From IMG/VR virus record IMGVR_UViG_3300032331_002067, positions 36,002-100,001 of that record: a DNA stretch of 64,000 nucleotides; one strand, 5' to 3'. The DNA is from a virus. Below, piece after piece: positions 8,646 through 41,294 of this stretch; positions within the stretch are counted from its first letter, which is position 1, and every line of letters starts with the position of its first letter. The notes below the pieces were generated by a model, which was given only the letters and a program-made list of their open reading frames with translations, had not been told where the DNA came from and did no database searches. A program made the position numbers and the translations under genes.

Positions 8646-9314
8646 ATGAAAACTAAAAATAAAATTAAAAACATGTTGTTATGTACAGCATTAATTACAG
8701 GAATGGTTGCAACTAATGCATCAGCAAAAGTTAATACAGTTCCTACGGAAATACCTCAACTAACTTTCAGTGAACTTGGAAAGCCAAGAGCTTTGGATTT
8801 ATATTGGCATAGAATGGCTCAATGTGAAACCGGAGGCGATTGGAAAAACAAAGGTCAATGGTCAGGTGGTTTAGGTATTTATAAACAAACTTGGATTGGA
8901 TATGGCGGAAAAGAATTCGCATCTAAACCAGAATTTGCAACAATAGATGAACAAATTATTATTGCAAATAGGATCTCAACTCAGGGATATCAAACCAAAA
9001 ATGAGTTCCGAACATTTGAGGATAGACAAAAGAATAGACCATTCTTTAGAGAACCAGTAGGCTTTAGCGGATGGGGATGTAAAAAGAATGTTGGAAATCC
9101 TGTGTTGTTTAAAAAATTCCCTGCGAAAACATTACTTCATCAATATCATCTTGGTGAAAGAGGTTCTCTTGTTAGTAACCTTCAAAAAATTATTGGTGCA
9201 GTACCAGTAGATGGATATTATGGTCCACATACTGATTCTGTTTATAATAAGTTTATGAACAAATACAGGAAGTATCTCATTGCCGAATACGAGAAATATA
9301 AACATCTCTCATAA
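8646..9314 (+). CDS. Secreted Rpf-like transglycosylase with peptidoglycan-binding domain
   Basis: 222 residues. Signal peptide at residues 1-27 (basic start, hydrophobic core, ASA cleavage). Then an Rpf/lysozyme-like domain: WHRMAQCETGGDW at 54-66 with the catalytic Glu61, GGLGIYKQTWIGYGG, and the trailing PEFATIDEQIIIANR helix. The C-terminal SNLQKIIGAVPVDGYYGPHT looks like a PG-binding-1 repeat. Rpf enzymes cleave actinobacterial peptidoglycan and wake dormant cells. A signal peptide would put it outside the host, so late lysis or wall remodelling during infection are both possible. It is preceded by a long leader, which suggests separate regulation. Confidence 0.85.
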   Translation: MKTKNKIKNMLLCTALITGMVATNASAKVNTVPTEIPQLTFSELGKPRALDLYWHRMAQCETGGDWKNKGQWSGGLGIYKQTWIGYGGKEFASKPEFATIDEQIIIANRISTQGYQTKNEFRTFEDRQKNRPFFREPVGFSGWGCKKNVGNPVLFKKFPAKTLLHQYHLGERGSLVSNLQKIIGAVPVDGYYGPHTDSVYNKFMNKYRKYLIAEYEKYKHLS

Positions 9315-30859: not shown

Positions 30860-31551
30860 AAAGCAATTCTACCTGATTCAATAAACGCTTCGTGTGAAAT
30901 AGGCATCTTTTGCTGGAATATGTCTTCAATTACTTTTGCATACTCATTGATTTCATATTGGGCATTGCCTTCGTTGCGAAGCGAAATAAAATTAATCAAA
31001 CTTCTTGCATTTACTGTCCAAATAAACTCAGTATATTGAGTTACTGGTAGTACGCAACGAGCAATTTCTTTAGCAACGCCAAGCTCAATCAGCTTGTAAT
31101 AAGCCTCATCCGCCTGCAGAATTGTTTGTTGAAAAATAGAATAGAAAGCATCTTTAACTTCTGGATCAGAAATTTCTTCAAAAGTATAAGCTCCGGGTTT
31201 TCCAATCTGCTTACGAATCTTATCGTAAGCTGGGGTATAGTAATCAATGTTTGCAGGCTGATGGTATCGCATACTCATCTCATTGAATGATGACCATCGA
31301 TGACGCATCCATTCTCTTGTAACAAAAATTGGAGCCTTAATTCTGAACTTAAATACACAGTGTTCAAAAGGAGTTGCGTGCTTATTACGCATAAGATACT
31401 TAATTAAGCCAATTGAAGACTCATCTAACTCTTTAACATAAGTGGCAAAACTAACTTTTGCAGCATTAACAACATCAACATCTGATGCCATACAGTTGAG
31501 TAATTCAATTTCGCCATTGTCGAGAATGTCGTAAACGGTAGTATAAGTCAT
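30856..31551 (-). CDS. thyX: Flavin-dependent thymidylate synthase ThyX
   Basis: 231 residues. The ThyX signature RHRWSSFNEMSMRY sits at 83-96 and the FAD/dUMP-binding regions look intact. It makes dTMP from dUMP using FAD and folate, supplying phage DNA synthesis. It is first in the minus-strand operon, with a 21-base palindrome just upstream, and is divergent from the RNR side. Confidence 0.95.
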   Translation of the reverse strand: MTYTTVYDILDNGEIELLNCMASDVDVVNAAKVSFATYVKELDESSIGLIKYLMRNKHATPFEHCVFKFRIKAPIFVTREWMRHRWSSFNEMSMRYHQPANIDYYTPAYDKIRKQIGKPGAYTFEEISDPEVKDAFYSIFQQTILQADEAYYKLIELGVAKEIARCVLPVTQYTEFIWTVNARSLINFISLRNEGNAQYEINEYAKVIEDIFQQKMPISHEAFIESGRIAL

Positions 31552-35517: not shown

Positions 35518-37148
35518 TGGATAACAAAATGGTTCTGTCACAGGATGATGATGACTTCAGCGAAGAAATTGACGACCTTTCTTATATTTCAGCTTTAGCT
35601 AAAGTCGATGCAGTTGACCCTTTTTCTGAAGTAAAGATTTCAAGTCTTTCTCCAAAAATGAAAAGAAAAGCTCAGCGTCTTCAAAAAAGACATGAGGGAG
35701 AAGACGGAACAAAGTCTAAGTATCTTGATCCAGAAGTTGTTAACGGTTATTCACTATGGGATATTGTTAATCCGCCATATGATTTAGATAGTCTTGCAAT
35801 CCTATACGACCAGAGTTCAATTCACTATGCAGCTATTAATGCAAGAGTAATGAATACCGTTGGTCTTGGTTTTGAATTTGATGAAACTCTTAAATCAAGA
35901 AGGCGTATTGAAAAAGTACAGGGTGAGCCATTAAAACTTGAAAAGACTCGTAAAAGCTTACAAGATCTTAGGGAAGAGCTTGAAGTTCTTTTTGAAAGTT
36001 TCAATGTTGAAGAAACATTGATTGAGACAATGGTTCGTGTTTGGCAAGATTGTCTTACAGTCGGTAATGGTTATTTAGAAATTGGTCGCAATAATGAGGG
36101 CAAGGTCGGTTATATCGGTCATATCCCTGCAACGATGGTTCGTGTAAGAAGGCGTAGAGATGGCTTTGTGCAACTCTCAAGGGCTAACAAGATCCAAGCT
36201 ATTTTCTTTAGAAACTTTCAAGACCTAGAGATGGAAGATCCCGTTAATGGCGATCCAAAGCCAAATGAAATTATTCATTTCAAGATGTATTCTCCAAACA
36301 GCACTTACTACGGTATTCCTGCAGCAGTTTCTGCAGCAGCAGCAATCATTGGGGATAAATTTGCAAAAGAATATAATATTGATTATTTTGAAAATAAGGC
36401 TATTCCTCGTTATGCAATTATCCTTAAAGGTGCAAAACTAAGCAATAAGTCAAAAGCTGAACTTGTTAATTACTTCCGCAATGAAGTTAAAGGTAGAAAC
36501 CACGGAACACTTGTTATCCCTCTTCCTGCCAGTATTGGTTCTGATTCAGATATCCGATTTGAGAAACTTGAAGCTGGAGTTCAGGATGCTTCATTTGATA
36601 AGTATCGTAAATCTAACCGTGATGAAATCCTCGTAGCCAACAGAGTTCCTGCACCAAAAGTTGGTGTTTATGATAATGCAAACCTTGCTGTATCACGAGA
36701 TGCGGATAAGACATTTAAGATGCAAGTAATTGGTCCAGACCAAGCAATTATTGAAAAGAAGATCAACAGACTTCTTGCTGAGTTCACAGACCTCCTTCAG
36801 TTCAAGCTTAAGAAGATTGACTTGCTTGATGAAGATATGGAATCAAGAATTTATGACCGTTACCTCAGAACTGAAGTTATCAGTCCTAATGAGGTTAGAG
36901 GTAAGATTGGATTCCCAGAACGGAAGGATGGCGATGATGTCCTTCCTTTCCCAACAAAGATCAAACAAGAGAACGCAGGAGCACCAGTTGGAAATTCCAA
37001 CAATGCTTCCTCTAATCCACCAAAATCTAGATCAGACAGTGGAGCAACACCAAGTGGGGTTCAGGGTTCCGGAGATCAAAAAGAAAGAGGTCAGGCACAA
37101 GACTCGGGTGATAATACAACCGCTAATACTGACCAAGGAGGAAACTAA
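35517..37148 (+). CDS. Portal protein, PBSX/HK97 type
   Basis: 543 residues. Conserved blocks include YDLDSLAILYDQSSIHYAAINARV, LTVGNGYLEIGRN, and YYGIPAAVSAAAAIIGDKFAKEYNIDYFENKAIPRYAII, typical of PBSX-family portals. The C-terminal 60 residues are polar and Gln/Ser-rich. It forms the dodecameric DNA channel. No terminase gene precedes it in the window. Confidence 0.9.
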   Translation: MDNKMVLSQDDDDFSEEIDDLSYISALAKVDAVDPFSEVKISSLSPKMKRKAQRLQKRHEGEDGTKSKYLDPEVVNGYSLWDIVNPPYDLDSLAILYDQSSIHYAAINARVMNTVGLGFEFDETLKSRRRIEKVQGEPLKLEKTRKSLQDLREELEVLFESFNVEETLIETMVRVWQDCLTVGNGYLEIGRNNEGKVGYIGHIPATMVRVRRRRDGFVQLSRANKIQAIFFRNFQDLEMEDPVNGDPKPNEIIHFKMYSPNSTYYGIPAAVSAAAAIIGDKFAKEYNIDYFENKAIPRYAIILKGAKLSNKSKAELVNYFRNEVKGRNHGTLVIPLPASIGSDSDIRFEKLEAGVQDASFDKYRKSNRDEILVANRVPAPKVGVYDNANLAVSRDADKTFKMQVIGPDQAIIEKKINRLLAEFTDLLQFKLKKIDLLDEDMESRIYDRYLRTEVISPNEVRGKIGFPERKDGDDVLPFPTKIKQENAGAPVGNSNNASSNPPKSRSDSGATPSGVQGSGDQKERGQAQDSGDNTTANTDQGGN

Positions 37149-37411
37149 TGGCAGAAGGTCAGACAATGATTTTTGCAATGGCAAATGTTACATCAAGTGA
37201 TGGAGTGGTAAGTATTGGAAGACATACATCACAAATATCATTCATGAACCAAGGTGCAGATTTTGTAGATATTAAATTAAATGGTAGACATATCATTAAA
37301 ATTGGACACGGGCAAGTTGAAGCGCATTTTTACAATTCAATTGATGGTGATTACACCACTTTTGAAGTATTAACTGCGGGTCAGACTGTTTCCATGTATG
37401 CCCTCGGGTAA
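37148..37411 (+). CDS. Small beta protein, duplicated (copy 1)
   Basis: 87 residues, starting at the portal stop. SDGVVSIGRHTSQI..LNGRHIIKIGH..GDYTTFEVLTAGQTVSMYALG is repeated by the next gene, so this is a tandem duplication. A small beta-sandwich capsid decoration role is plausible from position. Confidence 0.65.
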   Translation: MAEGQTMIFAMANVTSSDGVVSIGRHTSQISFMNQGADFVDIKLNGRHIIKIGHGQVEAHFYNSIDGDYTTFEVLTAGQTVSMYALG

Positions 37412-37422
37412 AGGAGAAAAAA

Positions 37423-37683
37423 ATGAGTAGTATTGTATATACAACAACAGCTATTGCAAGCACAGACGGAGTGGTGCCAATCGGACATCATACTGATTAC
37501 TTGTTCGTATGGAACGCAAATAGTACAACAAGTGCCGTTATTGAATTGAATGGAAGACATCAAGTTCTTATTCCACATTCACCAACTAATGGTAGTCACA
37601 TGTATCATAAAATTCCGGGAGATTATACAACCATTAAAGTTGTTACAGCCGGTGTTACGCTTTCTGCTTATGCAGTTGGGTAA
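37423..37683 (+). CDS. Small beta protein, duplicated (copy 2)
   Basis: 86 residues, with AAAGGAGAAAAAA upstream. STDGVVPIGHHTDYL..LNGRHQVLIPH..GDYTTIKVVTAGVTLSAYAVG parallels copy 1 throughout. Confidence 0.65.
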   Translation: MSSIVYTTTAIASTDGVVPIGHHTDYLFVWNANSTTSAVIELNGRHQVLIPHSPTNGSHMYHKIPGDYTTIKVVTAGVTLSAYAVG

Positions 37684-37707
37684 TTATACACAGAATAGTG
37701 TATAATT
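37682..37707. promoter_or_regulatory. Inverted repeat with TATAAT before the protease gene
   Basis: AATTATACAC-AGAATA-GTGTATAATT, a perfect 10-bp stem; its right arm contains TATAAT at 37701-37706. No T run follows, so an operator/promoter reading is as likely as a processing hairpin. Confidence 0.5.
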
Positions 37708-37725: not shown

Positions 37726-39813
37726 ATGGAAAACTTTAATTTATCTTTCCCGATTGAAATGATCAAGAAAGAGCAAAGAATTATTAGTGGTATCGCTACT
37801 GCTGATAATGTTGACAAATCTGGTGATATTGTTGACTTTTCTGCATCTCTTGAAGCATTTAAAAATTGGGGAGGGAACATCCGTGAGATGCACTCCCCTA
37901 TTGCTGTTGGCAAGGCTGTCAATTTTGAGCCAATCAAAATTAAAGGCGAAGATGGCGAAGAGTACAATGCTATTCGTGTAGATGCTTATATCTCAAAGGG
38001 TGCACAGGATACTTGGGAAAAGATTCTTGATGGCACTCTTCAGGCTTTCTCTATTGGCGGGAAGATTCTTCAAAAGAGTGAATCAGCAGAAAAGATGTTC
38101 CGAGGAAGACCTGTCAATGTTATTGAGAAGTATGTTCTTGGTGAATTGAGCGTGGTTGATAATCCAGCTAACGCTTTGGCAACCGTTGATATCATTAAGA
38201 GAAGTGATGATGGCGGTCTTGACTATGTTCTTGATAAAGCTTCTCCCCTCAAAGATCCCAAGGGCGGTCTTACAGCAGCAGGTCGTAGACACTTTAAAGA
38301 AACAGAAGGTGCAAATCTCAAACCCGGAGTTAAGGGTCCAGCAGATACCCCAGAGAAGATGCGTAGAAAAGGTTCTTTCCTTACACGCTTTTTCACAAAT
38401 CCATCTGGTCCTATGAAGGACTCAAAGGGAAGACCAACAAGGCTTGCGCTTTCAGCAGCAGCTTGGGGGGAACCAGTCCCGCAGAACGCACAGGATGCAG
38501 CAGAACTTGCTGCAAAAGGTCGCAGACTTCTTGAACGCTATCAGAATACTAAAGAAAAAAGTATGAAGAAAGAAGGGGAAGTCACATCAGGCTCAATGGG
38601 AGCTGGTATCAAGAACCCTACTCAAGGTAGTTTTCAAGGTCCATTCCCCGGGAAGCCTAAGAAAAAGAAAAAGGAGTTTTCTATGAAAAATAAAATTAAG
38701 AAAAGCTCTCCATTGACTGAATCGTTGAACAATCTTTTGTCCAACACCGCAGTTCTGTACTTCTCTTCGCATAGAGCGCATTGGAATGTTGAAGGTGTAG
38801 ATTTCCGTGAATATCATGATTTGTTTGGTGAAATTTATGAAGATACATATGATTCGATTGATCCAATTGCAGAAAGTATTAGAAAACTTGGAGACTTTCC
38901 AATTGCATTGGGAGATGCAGAGGATATGTCCTCATACGAGGATGACTCGGCAACAACAGACGCAAGAGAGCTTGCAATGGACATTTATGAAAAGAACAAG
39001 GTGTACCTAGAAATGGTAAAAGAAGCCTTCAATGTAGCAAACGATTCAGATGAACAAGGTGTCGCAAATCTCCTTGCAGGAAGAATTGAAATGCACGAAA
39101 AGTGGGATTGGCAACTTCGTGCTTCTCTTGGTATTTCAACAGGAACGCCTACAGAAGATCCTGAAGAGGATGGAATGGAAGATGATTCGTCTGAAGAGTA
39201 CCCAACTGAATCACTTACTGCAATGCTTACACAAATTTTAGAAATGTCTAATAAATCTGATACAGACGCAGATTTAGTTAAAATGCAAGAGAATGAATTG
39301 CAAAATGATGCAAATTATGATAAGGTCTTAAACATGAATGAACAAGAATCAAGATTGTCGCTACTTAAGCGTATGGTCAATTGGCTTGTTCCCGATGTAC
39401 AAGAAAATGCTTCAATCCAAATTGAAGTAACTGAAAACACACAGGAGGAAATTATGGATATTGAAATCCTTAAAGATGCTCTTAGTGCTGTGGTTGACGA
39501 AAAACTGGCTGCCTTCGCTACTTCAATTAAAGAAGAGGTTGAAGCTTCGGTTCAAGAAAAAATCGACACCATCACCAAGGGATTTGAAGTTCAAACAACT
39601 GAACTTCAAGAAAAATTAGAAGCAACAGAGCAATCTCTGTCCGAGCAAGAGGAGAAGGTTCAAGCCTTCGCTAAGTCCGGTGCTATCAAGAAAAGCGTTG
39701 ACCCAGAAGATGATGAAGAGGGCGAGGAACTTACCAAGTCTGCTCCATCATCAATTTGGGACAATACATATTTGCCACAAGGTTTAATTAACTCCTTGGG
39801 CTATAAGTCATAA
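37726..39813 (+). CDS. Prohead protease - Dps-like - scaffold fusion
   Basis: 695 residues. Residues 1-160: XkdF-type prohead protease with His56 (MHSPIAVGKA) and Ser109 (FSIGG). Residues 175-275: DUF6321-like region (KDPKGGLTAAGRRHF, GSFLTRFF). Residues 325-480: a Dps/ferritin-like four-helix domain (LNNLLSNTAVLYFSSHRAHWNVEG, H352, H364, D379, E383; the usual acid at 368 is Gly). Residues 577-695: coiled-coil scaffold. Strong internal ribosome sites precede in-frame ATGs at 38683 (AAGGAG) and 39454 (AGGAGG), exactly at domain borders, so nested shorter products are likely. Confidence 0.85.
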   Translation: MENFNLSFPIEMIKKEQRIISGIATADNVDKSGDIVDFSASLEAFKNWGGNIREMHSPIAVGKAVNFEPIKIKGEDGEEYNAIRVDAYISKGAQDTWEKILDGTLQAFSIGGKILQKSESAEKMFRGRPVNVIEKYVLGELSVVDNPANALATVDIIKRSDDGGLDYVLDKASPLKDPKGGLTAAGRRHFKETEGANLKPGVKGPADTPEKMRRKGSFLTRFFTNPSGPMKDSKGRPTRLALSAAAWGEPVPQNAQDAAELAAKGRRLLERYQNTKEKSMKKEGEVTSGSMGAGIKNPTQGSFQGPFPGKPKKKKKEFSMKNKIKKSSPLTESLNNLLSNTAVLYFSSHRAHWNVEGVDFREYHDLFGEIYEDTYDSIDPIAESIRKLGDFPIALGDAEDMSSYEDDSATTDARELAMDIYEKNKVYLEMVKEAFNVANDSDEQGVANLLAGRIEMHEKWDWQLRASLGISTGTPTEDPEEDGMEDDSSEEYPTESLTAMLTQILEMSNKSDTDADLVKMQENELQNDANYDKVLNMNEQESRLSLLKRMVNWLVPDVQENASIQIEVTENTQEEIMDIEILKDALSAVVDEKLAAFATSIKEEVEASVQEKIDTITKGFEVQTTELQEKLEATEQSLSEQEEKVQAFAKSGAIKKSVDPEDDEEGEELTKSAPSSIWDNTYLPQGLINSLGYKS

Positions 39814-39830: not shown

Positions 39831-40862
39831 ATGGCATCACAAGAAGAAATTCTATCAAAGGCTAATGAAGTAACAACTGGGGTTGTAGGTAATGATTCGG
39901 GTGGTTTGATGAAGCCACAGCAGTCAAACCGCTTCCTTGATTTTGTTATTGATCAGTCTGTACTTATGCAGAACGCAAGAGTCGTTCGTATGCGTACACC
40001 ACAAATGGAAATCGATAAGGTTTCTGTAGGCACTCGCTTGCTTTCAAAGGCAACCGAGGCAACAGATGATGGCTCAAATGCAGCCGTCACATTCAGCAAG
40101 GTCTCATTGTCCACCGTCAAGCTTCGTCTTGATTGGGCACTGTCAACCGAGTCGTTGGAAGACAACATTGAGGGAGCTTCTTTGGAGGACCACATCGCAC
40201 AGATGATGGCTCGCCAGACTGCAAACGACCTTGACGATCTCTTTATCAACGGAAACACAAGCTCCAACAACGGTCTCATTAAGGCTCTTGATGGTTTTGT
40301 TAAGCTTTCAAAGGCAAATGGTCGTGTAGTTGATGAGGCTGGTAATGGAGTTTCTCGTGCATCTTATGACCGTATCCTTCGTAACCTTCCAACCAAGTAC
40401 CTTCAGCGCAGAAATGAACTGAAGTTCTTCTCTGGTTCAGGTATCGTTCAGGACACAATCTACAGCCTTGGAAATCCAAACTCTGCAACAGCAGCAACAG
40501 CAGGCGCACCTGCACCATTCTCACAAGTCGGCGAACTTGCATTCTTGCAAGGCGCAATGCGTGGAAATGGTGGTGCTGGTTCAACTGGTATTTCACCATT
40601 CGGTATTCCGTTGGTTGAAATTCCTTTGATGCCAGAAACCGTTGCCGGTGATTATTCCGGAGCAGCTGGTTCACATGGTTATGTGGAACTCACATTCCCT
40701 AACAACCGTGTTATCGGTATTCACCGTGACATCACTGTGTATCGTCAGTTCAAGCCAAAAACAGACACTATTGAGTACACTCAGTTCATGAGAGTAGCAA
40801 GCAATATTGAAAATGCTGATTCGTATGTAATCGGTAAAAACCTTAAGCTTCGCACACTGTAA
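39831..40862 (+). CDS. Major capsid protein, HK97 fold
   Basis: 343 residues following the protease/scaffold gene. LMKPQQSNRFLDFVIDQSVL opens the P domain, LEDHIAQMMARQTANDLDDLFINGN is the conserved E-loop/helix region, and ISPFGIPLVEIPLMPE plus NRVIGIHRDITVYRQFKP the A domain. The gene is more GC-rich than its neighbours, as expected for the most expressed gene. GGAGGAAAC upstream. Confidence 0.92.
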   Translation: MASQEEILSKANEVTTGVVGNDSGGLMKPQQSNRFLDFVIDQSVLMQNARVVRMRTPQMEIDKVSVGTRLLSKATEATDDGSNAAVTFSKVSLSTVKLRLDWALSTESLEDNIEGASLEDHIAQMMARQTANDLDDLFINGNTSSNNGLIKALDGFVKLSKANGRVVDEAGNGVSRASYDRILRNLPTKYLQRRNELKFFSGSGIVQDTIYSLGNPNSATAATAGAPAPFSQVGELAFLQGAMRGNGGAGSTGISPFGIPLVEIPLMPETVAGDYSGAAGSHGYVELTFPNNRVIGIHRDITVYRQFKPKTDTIEYTQFMRVASNIENADSYVIGKNLKLRTL

Positions 40863-40887
40863 GTAATAATTAAAAAATTTGTGATCG

Positions 40888-40926
40888 GGGGGGGGTGAAA
40901 TATCCCCTCCCTTTCGCATTTTTTAA
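40888..40926 (+). terminator. Possible terminator after capsid gene
   Basis: G9-TGAAATAT-CCCCTCCC with TTTCGCATTTTTT after it. Pairing allows one mismatch. Would separate the highly expressed capsid gene. Confidence 0.5.
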
Positions 40927-40949
40927 TTAAGTGTGGTATTGTATTAACC

Positions 40950-41294
40950 ATGACTGATAACATCGTTACATCGAAAGCAACATCAGGTGAAGAAGCAAAG
41001 CCAGCAAAGAAAGCTCCGGCTAAGAAGGCTGCTGCAAAGCCAAAGGTTGAAGCAGAAATCACAGAAGATAATGTTGAAACAAAACCAGCAAAAGTATCTA
41101 AGAAGACAAATCAAATTAATTTGATTATCTTCGAAAGCGGAGCTTCATATAGTTCCGGTGATCTTTTCTTTTCAAGAGAAGATAAGACTCAAGAAGTCTC
41201 AGATGAGGATTTTGCATTCCTTCTGACTCTTGAAAATTTTAGAAGAGCAGATCCTCACGAAATCGAAGAGTATCTTGCTTCTAAGGAGGGTTAA
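40950..41294 (+). CDS. Hypothetical head protein with Lys/Ala/Pro tail
   Basis: 114 residues. Residues 16-35 are KPAKKAPAKKAAAKPK, a histone-H1-like basic stretch, followed by an acidic linker and a small C-terminal domain (INLIIFESGASYSSGDLFFSRED). Possibly packaged with DNA or a neck protein. Confidence 0.6.
   Translation: MTDNIVTSKATSGEEAKPAKKAPAKKAAAKPKVEAEITEDNVETKPAKVSKKTNQINLIIFESGASYSSGDLFFSREDKTQEVSDEDFAFLLTLENFRRADPHEIEEYLASKEG

Follow-up and report, generated by a model that had tools for sequence, protein, structure and literature searches.

A basic question of phage head assembly is how a virus sets the ratio between a few protease molecules and hundreds of scaffold and capsid subunits. 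The locus described here encodes protease and scaffold in one open reading frame. The window, i.e. the whole 64-kb piece of a 100-kb IMG/VR virus record that we analysed, contains a head module of standard layout, in which a portal gene is followed by two small genes, an ORF of 695 aa (37726-39813, + strand) and the gene for the major capsid protein (MCP; 39831-40862, +). The ORF starts with a prohead protease domain of the Peptidase_S78 family (aa 1-163, 37726-38214), assigned by matches to PF04586 (23.3 bits, cut-off 21) and phrog_9427 (6e-52); the His, Ser and acidic residues H56, S109 and E140 are invariant in this domain. It continues in frame with DUF6321 (PF19846; aa 176-247, 38251-38466), a Dps/ferritin-like domain (aa 329-468, 38710-39129), a variable linker of ~107 aa (aa 470-576) and a scaffold domain consisting of a coiled coil and a conserved C-terminal tail (aa 577-695, 39454-39810). 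phrog_9427, the family that also covers the protease, aligns through its C-terminal part with this last domain, whose long coiled-coil helix begins at aa 579, two residues past M577. An AlphaFold model of the full-length protein has a moderate pLDDT of 55 and is informative for the Dps helices and the coiled coil only. Searches of viral contigs returned 286 loci with the scaffold domain, including 58 that are distinct at <95% nucleotide identity, and nearly all of these 58 have the single fused ORF. In L016 the ORF is broken by a stop after the DUF6321 region that leaves the scaffold part intact, which may be a sequencing error or a real split. Upstream, the two small genes adjoin each other (37148-37683, +) and have similar products, both of which hold xSSDGVV/xSTDGVVxIGxHT; the pair, lying between portal and protease, resembles a tandem duplication. 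Just before the protease start lies a perfect 9-bp inverted repeat, ATTATACAC/GTGTATAAT, with TATAAT inside (37683-37706), a candidate operator, promoter or terminator.

An earlier note on this DNA had pointed to two internal Shine-Dalgarno (SD) sequences in the ORF, proposing that they lie exactly at domain borders and yield three nested proteins in the manner of lambda C/Nu3. Both pairs are indeed present, with AAGGAG (38671-38676) six nucleotides before ATG 38683 (M320; site 1) and AGGAGG (39443-39448) five nucleotides before ATG 39454 (M577; site 2), and both start codons share the reading frame that opens at 37726 (957 = 3 x 319 and 1728 = 3 x 576). Among the 276 internal in-frame ATGs in genes of the window, AAGGAG or GGAGG lies ~4-10 nt upstream in just three, and sites 1 and 2 are two of them. 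The agreement with domain borders holds in part: the Dps domain begins around aa 329, nine residues past M320, and the scaffold begins at site 2, but site 2 does not mark the end of Dps, since the ~107-aa linker intervenes. The nesting fares likewise, in that the scaffold start is strongly supported and a separate Dps product less so. We also considered a general excess of strong SD and start pairs between DUF6321 and the promoter described below and dropped it; similar pairs occur elsewhere in the ORF, and therefore codon bias is all that was kept as evidence for site 1.

The case for site 2 (39443-39456, +; 119-aa product) comes from several directions. All 58 distinct relatives have GGAGG suitably spaced from a start codon, which is ATG in 57 and GTG in one (L118). 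In a per-codon analysis of 26 representatives, no other place in the ORF has synonymous change suppressed as strongly as this SD, with its codons NTQEE (AAC ACA CAG GAG GAA) showing 25 differences where about 430-480 per five codons are expected. A limit is that the 58 sequences share ancestry. When synonymous codons were resampled, the SD was retained in a mean of 4.4 and a maximum of 10 of the 58, compared with 58 observed. The feature also extends to cultured phages. Ten of ten cultured relatives, namely eight Streptomyces phages (Stanwilliamsviridae) and the Rhodococcus phages Trina and Weasels2 (L082-L084, L314-L320), have within their capsid maturation protease genes an unannotated internal SD that is strong (-12 to -13 kcal/mol). 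Its start codon, GTG or ATG, falls at aa 245-268, ahead of an acidic and coiled-coil scaffold region. An Actinomycetota MAG (L321) has an equivalent strong SD. A conserved internal ribosome-binding site and start codon thus sit at the scaffold border throughout, and the assignment of site 2 as an internal scaffold start is very strongly supported by sequence. Because the internal SD is found in the cultured relatives and the MAG, we conclude from the same comparisons that a nested scaffold is general in this group of protease-scaffold phages and unannotated in its cultured members.

Site 1 (38671-38685, +) is a different matter, and here the full model of the earlier note, with Dps as a dedicated, independent product of site 1, has to be weighed. 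What speaks for it is mainly codon choice. The dipeptide Lys-Glu is spelled AAGGAG in 19 of 24 cases at site 1 vs. 22 of 302 at other places of these ORFs (p about 3e-15 by Fisher's test, uncorrected for shared ancestry), and a column-by-column contrast of Lys-Glu codons also favours site 1, with one other column, at aa ~515 (10/11), as an exception. On these two grounds site 1 is probably a real ribosome-binding site, and we put the chances that it initiates translation in the window phage at about even. A strong SD and start also stand at the Dps border in eight of 15 Dps carriers. The distribution of the site, on the other hand, does not follow that of Dps. The near-identical relative L090 lacks a 480-nt in-frame segment containing the Dps domain (38694-39173, +), and its flanks are ~95% identical to those of the window; the SD and ATG of site 1 lie in the shared flank, with the Dps segment just behind. 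Many other Dps-less relatives, e.g. L107 and L102, keep the site as well, and five Dps carriers (L129, L008, L128, L163 and L161) are without it, so that site 1 is not a Dps-specific start and we reject the idea that it exists for Dps. Moreover, a protein started at M320 would include the scaffold too, and hence would not be free Dps. The codon-level selection on AAGGAG thus strengthens the claim of a ribosome site, the link to Dps does not stand, and a dedicated Dps product appears possible but rather doubtful. As to the domain itself, HMM and fold both match the Dps family, with a ferritin-like four-helix fold and the His-His-Asp-Glu ferroxidase ligands, which nearly every carrier retains (L008 has lost the first His). 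By sequence and fold it is a genuine Dps member, for which iron oxidation and dodecamer formation are predictions. In four relatives (L059, L066, L077 and L010) the middle region of the protein, where Dps inserts elsewhere, has a stretch with Cys and His residues, PCWEGYHQEGEKKGKNGNMVPNCVPN, and this stretch had no Pfam match.

The earlier note considered translation only. A second peak of synonymous suppression, at aa 524-541, adds a transcriptional layer, as the DNA there has the form of a putative internal promoter (39298-39326, +): TTGCAA (39298-39303), 17 nt, and the -10 hexamer TAAGGT (39321-39326) preceded by an extended TGA (39318-39320), with an invariant ATG (39334-39336, M537) 7 nt past the -10. 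The arrangement TTG-N17-TGNTANNNT-N7-ATG is present at fixed spacing in 58 of 58 distinct relatives. Its invariant columns (TTGC-N16-T.TG.TA...T-N7-ATG, and one A seven bases after the ATG start, also 58/58) coincide with the -35, TGN/-10 and ATG positions, and the -10 variants, among them TAAGGT, TATGGT, TAAGAT, TATTGT and TAATGT, all conform to TANNNT. On resampling of synonymous codons, the motif was retained in a mean of 5.8 and at most 12 of the 58 sequences. A search of 780 kb of sequence from these phages, covering both strands, found 71 copies of the strict motif, of which 58 are the internal element and the remaining 13 lie roughly 1 kb downstream, by the gene that comes after MCP. 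A TANNNT whose centre lies 7-12 bp upstream of the start site, strengthened by TGN, is established in Mycobacterium tuberculosis, where leaderless transcripts are widespread (PMC3898074). The criteria for extended -10 leaderless promoters taken from that study are TGNTANNNT 7-12 bp from the start site and a start site at the start codon. The window, with TGA TAAGGT, 7 nt and ATG, and 58 of 58 relatives agree with them in sequence, and the element (39298-39336) is, judged from the DNA, a putative actinobacterial-type extended -10 promoter with a candidate leaderless scaffold start at M537, giving a 159-aa product. A scan for E. coli-type promoters gave no surplus of sites and did not pick out the element, which does not match the E. 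coli consensus used. Allowing up to one mismatch, the motif is not enriched across the window (11 found vs. 9 expected). Extended -10 plus ATG motifs are placed on predicted gene starts in five of 23 cases in the window, vs. about one expected. Predicted gene starts with TGNTANNNT 6-9 nt before the ATG are those at 31551 (-), 29779 (-), 31725 (+), 58025 (+) and 40950 (+); they mostly have weak SDs and suggest several leaderless transcripts in this phage.

The gene after MCP is informative in this respect. MCP is followed by a GC-rich, terminator-like hairpin (40887-40911, +; z -5.15) with a T-run at ~40921, and then by a leaderless-type promoter, TGG TATTGT N7 ATG(40950) (40934-40952, +), with a layout like that of the internal element. 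Among 42 relatives examined, MCP trailers contain a GC-rich inverted repeat and most have TGN-TANNNT-N7-ATG at the gene after MCP, with several in which the -35 does not match or the start has moved by a few codons. Because the internal layout recurs before this gene, which follows the terminator hairpin, scaffold and MCP probably form a transcription unit of their own that starts inside the protease gene. Three things point to an actinobacterial host: the cultured relatives, the Actinomycetota MAG and a transglycosylase-like protein with the resuscitation-promoting factor domain PF06737, encoded in the window by a gene with a strong SD (8646-9314, +). The window also has a cytochrome P450 gene (24462-25685, -; PF00067, E 3e-33), which is unusual for a phage.

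Could the nesting be translational only, as in lambda C/Nu3, with one late transcript from which internal SDs direct the fusion, the site 1 product and the scaffold, and with 39298-39336 being no promoter at all? Both SDs are real, lambda and Mu need no internal promoter (PMC8508860, PMC4378225), and the promoter motif was not found in the cultured Streptomyces and Rhodococcus relatives even though they have the internal SD. This leaves unexplained, however, the second synonymous-suppression peak and the promoter-shaped invariant columns in all 58 relatives, as well as the matching layout that these phages have at a real gene start, that of the gene behind MCP, and we consider it improbable. 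Less likely still is that the element is a signal for recombination, packaging or RNA structure: borders of recombination can be marked by islands of conserved DNA, and the Dps insertion is nearby, but conservation falls precisely on the positions of an extended -10 promoter and its ATG, and the stretch from this ATG to site 2 has weak predicted RNA structure (z -2.4). That only the full-length fusion is made, with the SD-like strings as by-products of a Lys/Glu-rich coding sequence, is hardly credible: KKE and QEE codons can yield AAGGAG or AGGAGG by chance, but resampling keeps the site 2 SD in no more than 10 sequences where 58 have it, and codon choice at site 1 is strongly unlike that of other Lys-Glu dipeptides.

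The reading we prefer, with a probability of roughly 80%, is that of a protease-scaffold ORF with a nested scaffold gene, expressed both as the full-length fusion and from an internal-promoter transcript for scaffold and MCP. It is built on sequence conservation, in-frame geometry, codon-level selection and domain content, all observed. A long transcript would yield the full-length protease-DUF6321-Dps-scaffold protein from the start at 37726, and its C-terminal scaffold part would presumably carry this fusion into the procapsid. From the promoter at 39298-39326 another transcript would begin, at ATG 39334 or close to it, and yield the scaffold from the leaderless M537 and/or the SD-led M577; this transcript would also carry MCP and end at the hairpin after it. 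With such a layout, scaffold and MCP would be made in far greater amounts than the protease. Site 1 is a probable extra internal start for an intermediate protein, which would contain Dps only in phages with the insertion. We infer transcription, translation, stoichiometry and the fate of the products in head and procapsid from the features of the DNA. A further idea is that the fusion is a carrier that brings a ferritin-like Dps enzyme into the procapsid, where the protease may free Dps to protect or accompany the DNA, while the internal promoter makes plain scaffold and MCP separately and the ratio of the transcripts sets the cargo level; we regard this as unlikely.

The ratio of protease to scaffold and capsid subunits seems to be encoded within the coding sequence of the protease gene itself, at one level by a promoter and at another by a ribosome site, and the synonymous positions of both are conserved across the 58 distinct relatives. 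This predicts a scaffold protein, as yet unannotated, in cultured Streptomyces and Rhodococcus phages. In addition, some phages of this freshwater family, and only some, have a head-assembly protein into which a Dps enzyme has been placed as a removable cassette. Among the closest known systems are the homologous 'capsid maturation proteases' of Stanwilliamsviridae, Trina and Weasels2 (about 40-51% identity), which share the gene order, the C-terminal coiled-coil scaffold and one very strong internal SD and start, but have no matching internal promoter and an unannotated nested product. Dps was not matched by tblastn in these cultured relatives, and a test of L082 for DUF6321 found none. In herpesviruses, the nested scaffold gene UL26.5 has its own transcript. 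It is annotated beside the protease gene and is co-terminal with UL26 (PMC3462797), as the scaffold is with the protease gene here; this is a eukaryotic virus, likened by arrangement and not by sequence. Mu and the Mu-like PaMx73 gene 27 have an SD-led, in-frame scaffold start within the protease gene (PMC4378225) like the window ORF but, in contrast to it, no described internal promoter and no Dps. For lambda, PMC8508860 cites the overlap of C and Nu3, with a nested scaffold start inside the protease gene; N-terminal protease, C-terminal scaffold, in-frame internal start and adjoining MCP gene are all shared with the window ORF (the lambda features being taken from the literature and not from sequence comparison). 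Beyond these, the window ORF has DUF6321, a variable Dps insertion and, for the scaffold, a conserved putative promoter and leaderless start. The Dps family of dodecameric ferritins is free-standing, including known phage Dps enzymes (PMC8008677), whereas the Dps domain of the window is fused inside a protease-scaffold protein. Our literature search, of incomplete coverage, found no report of a scaffold promoter inside a phage protease gene or of Dps fused to a protease. As far as the literature shows, nested scaffold starts in protease genes are known, and what is new here is a conserved, leaderless-type putative scaffold promoter within a phage protease gene, together with a removable Dps insertion.
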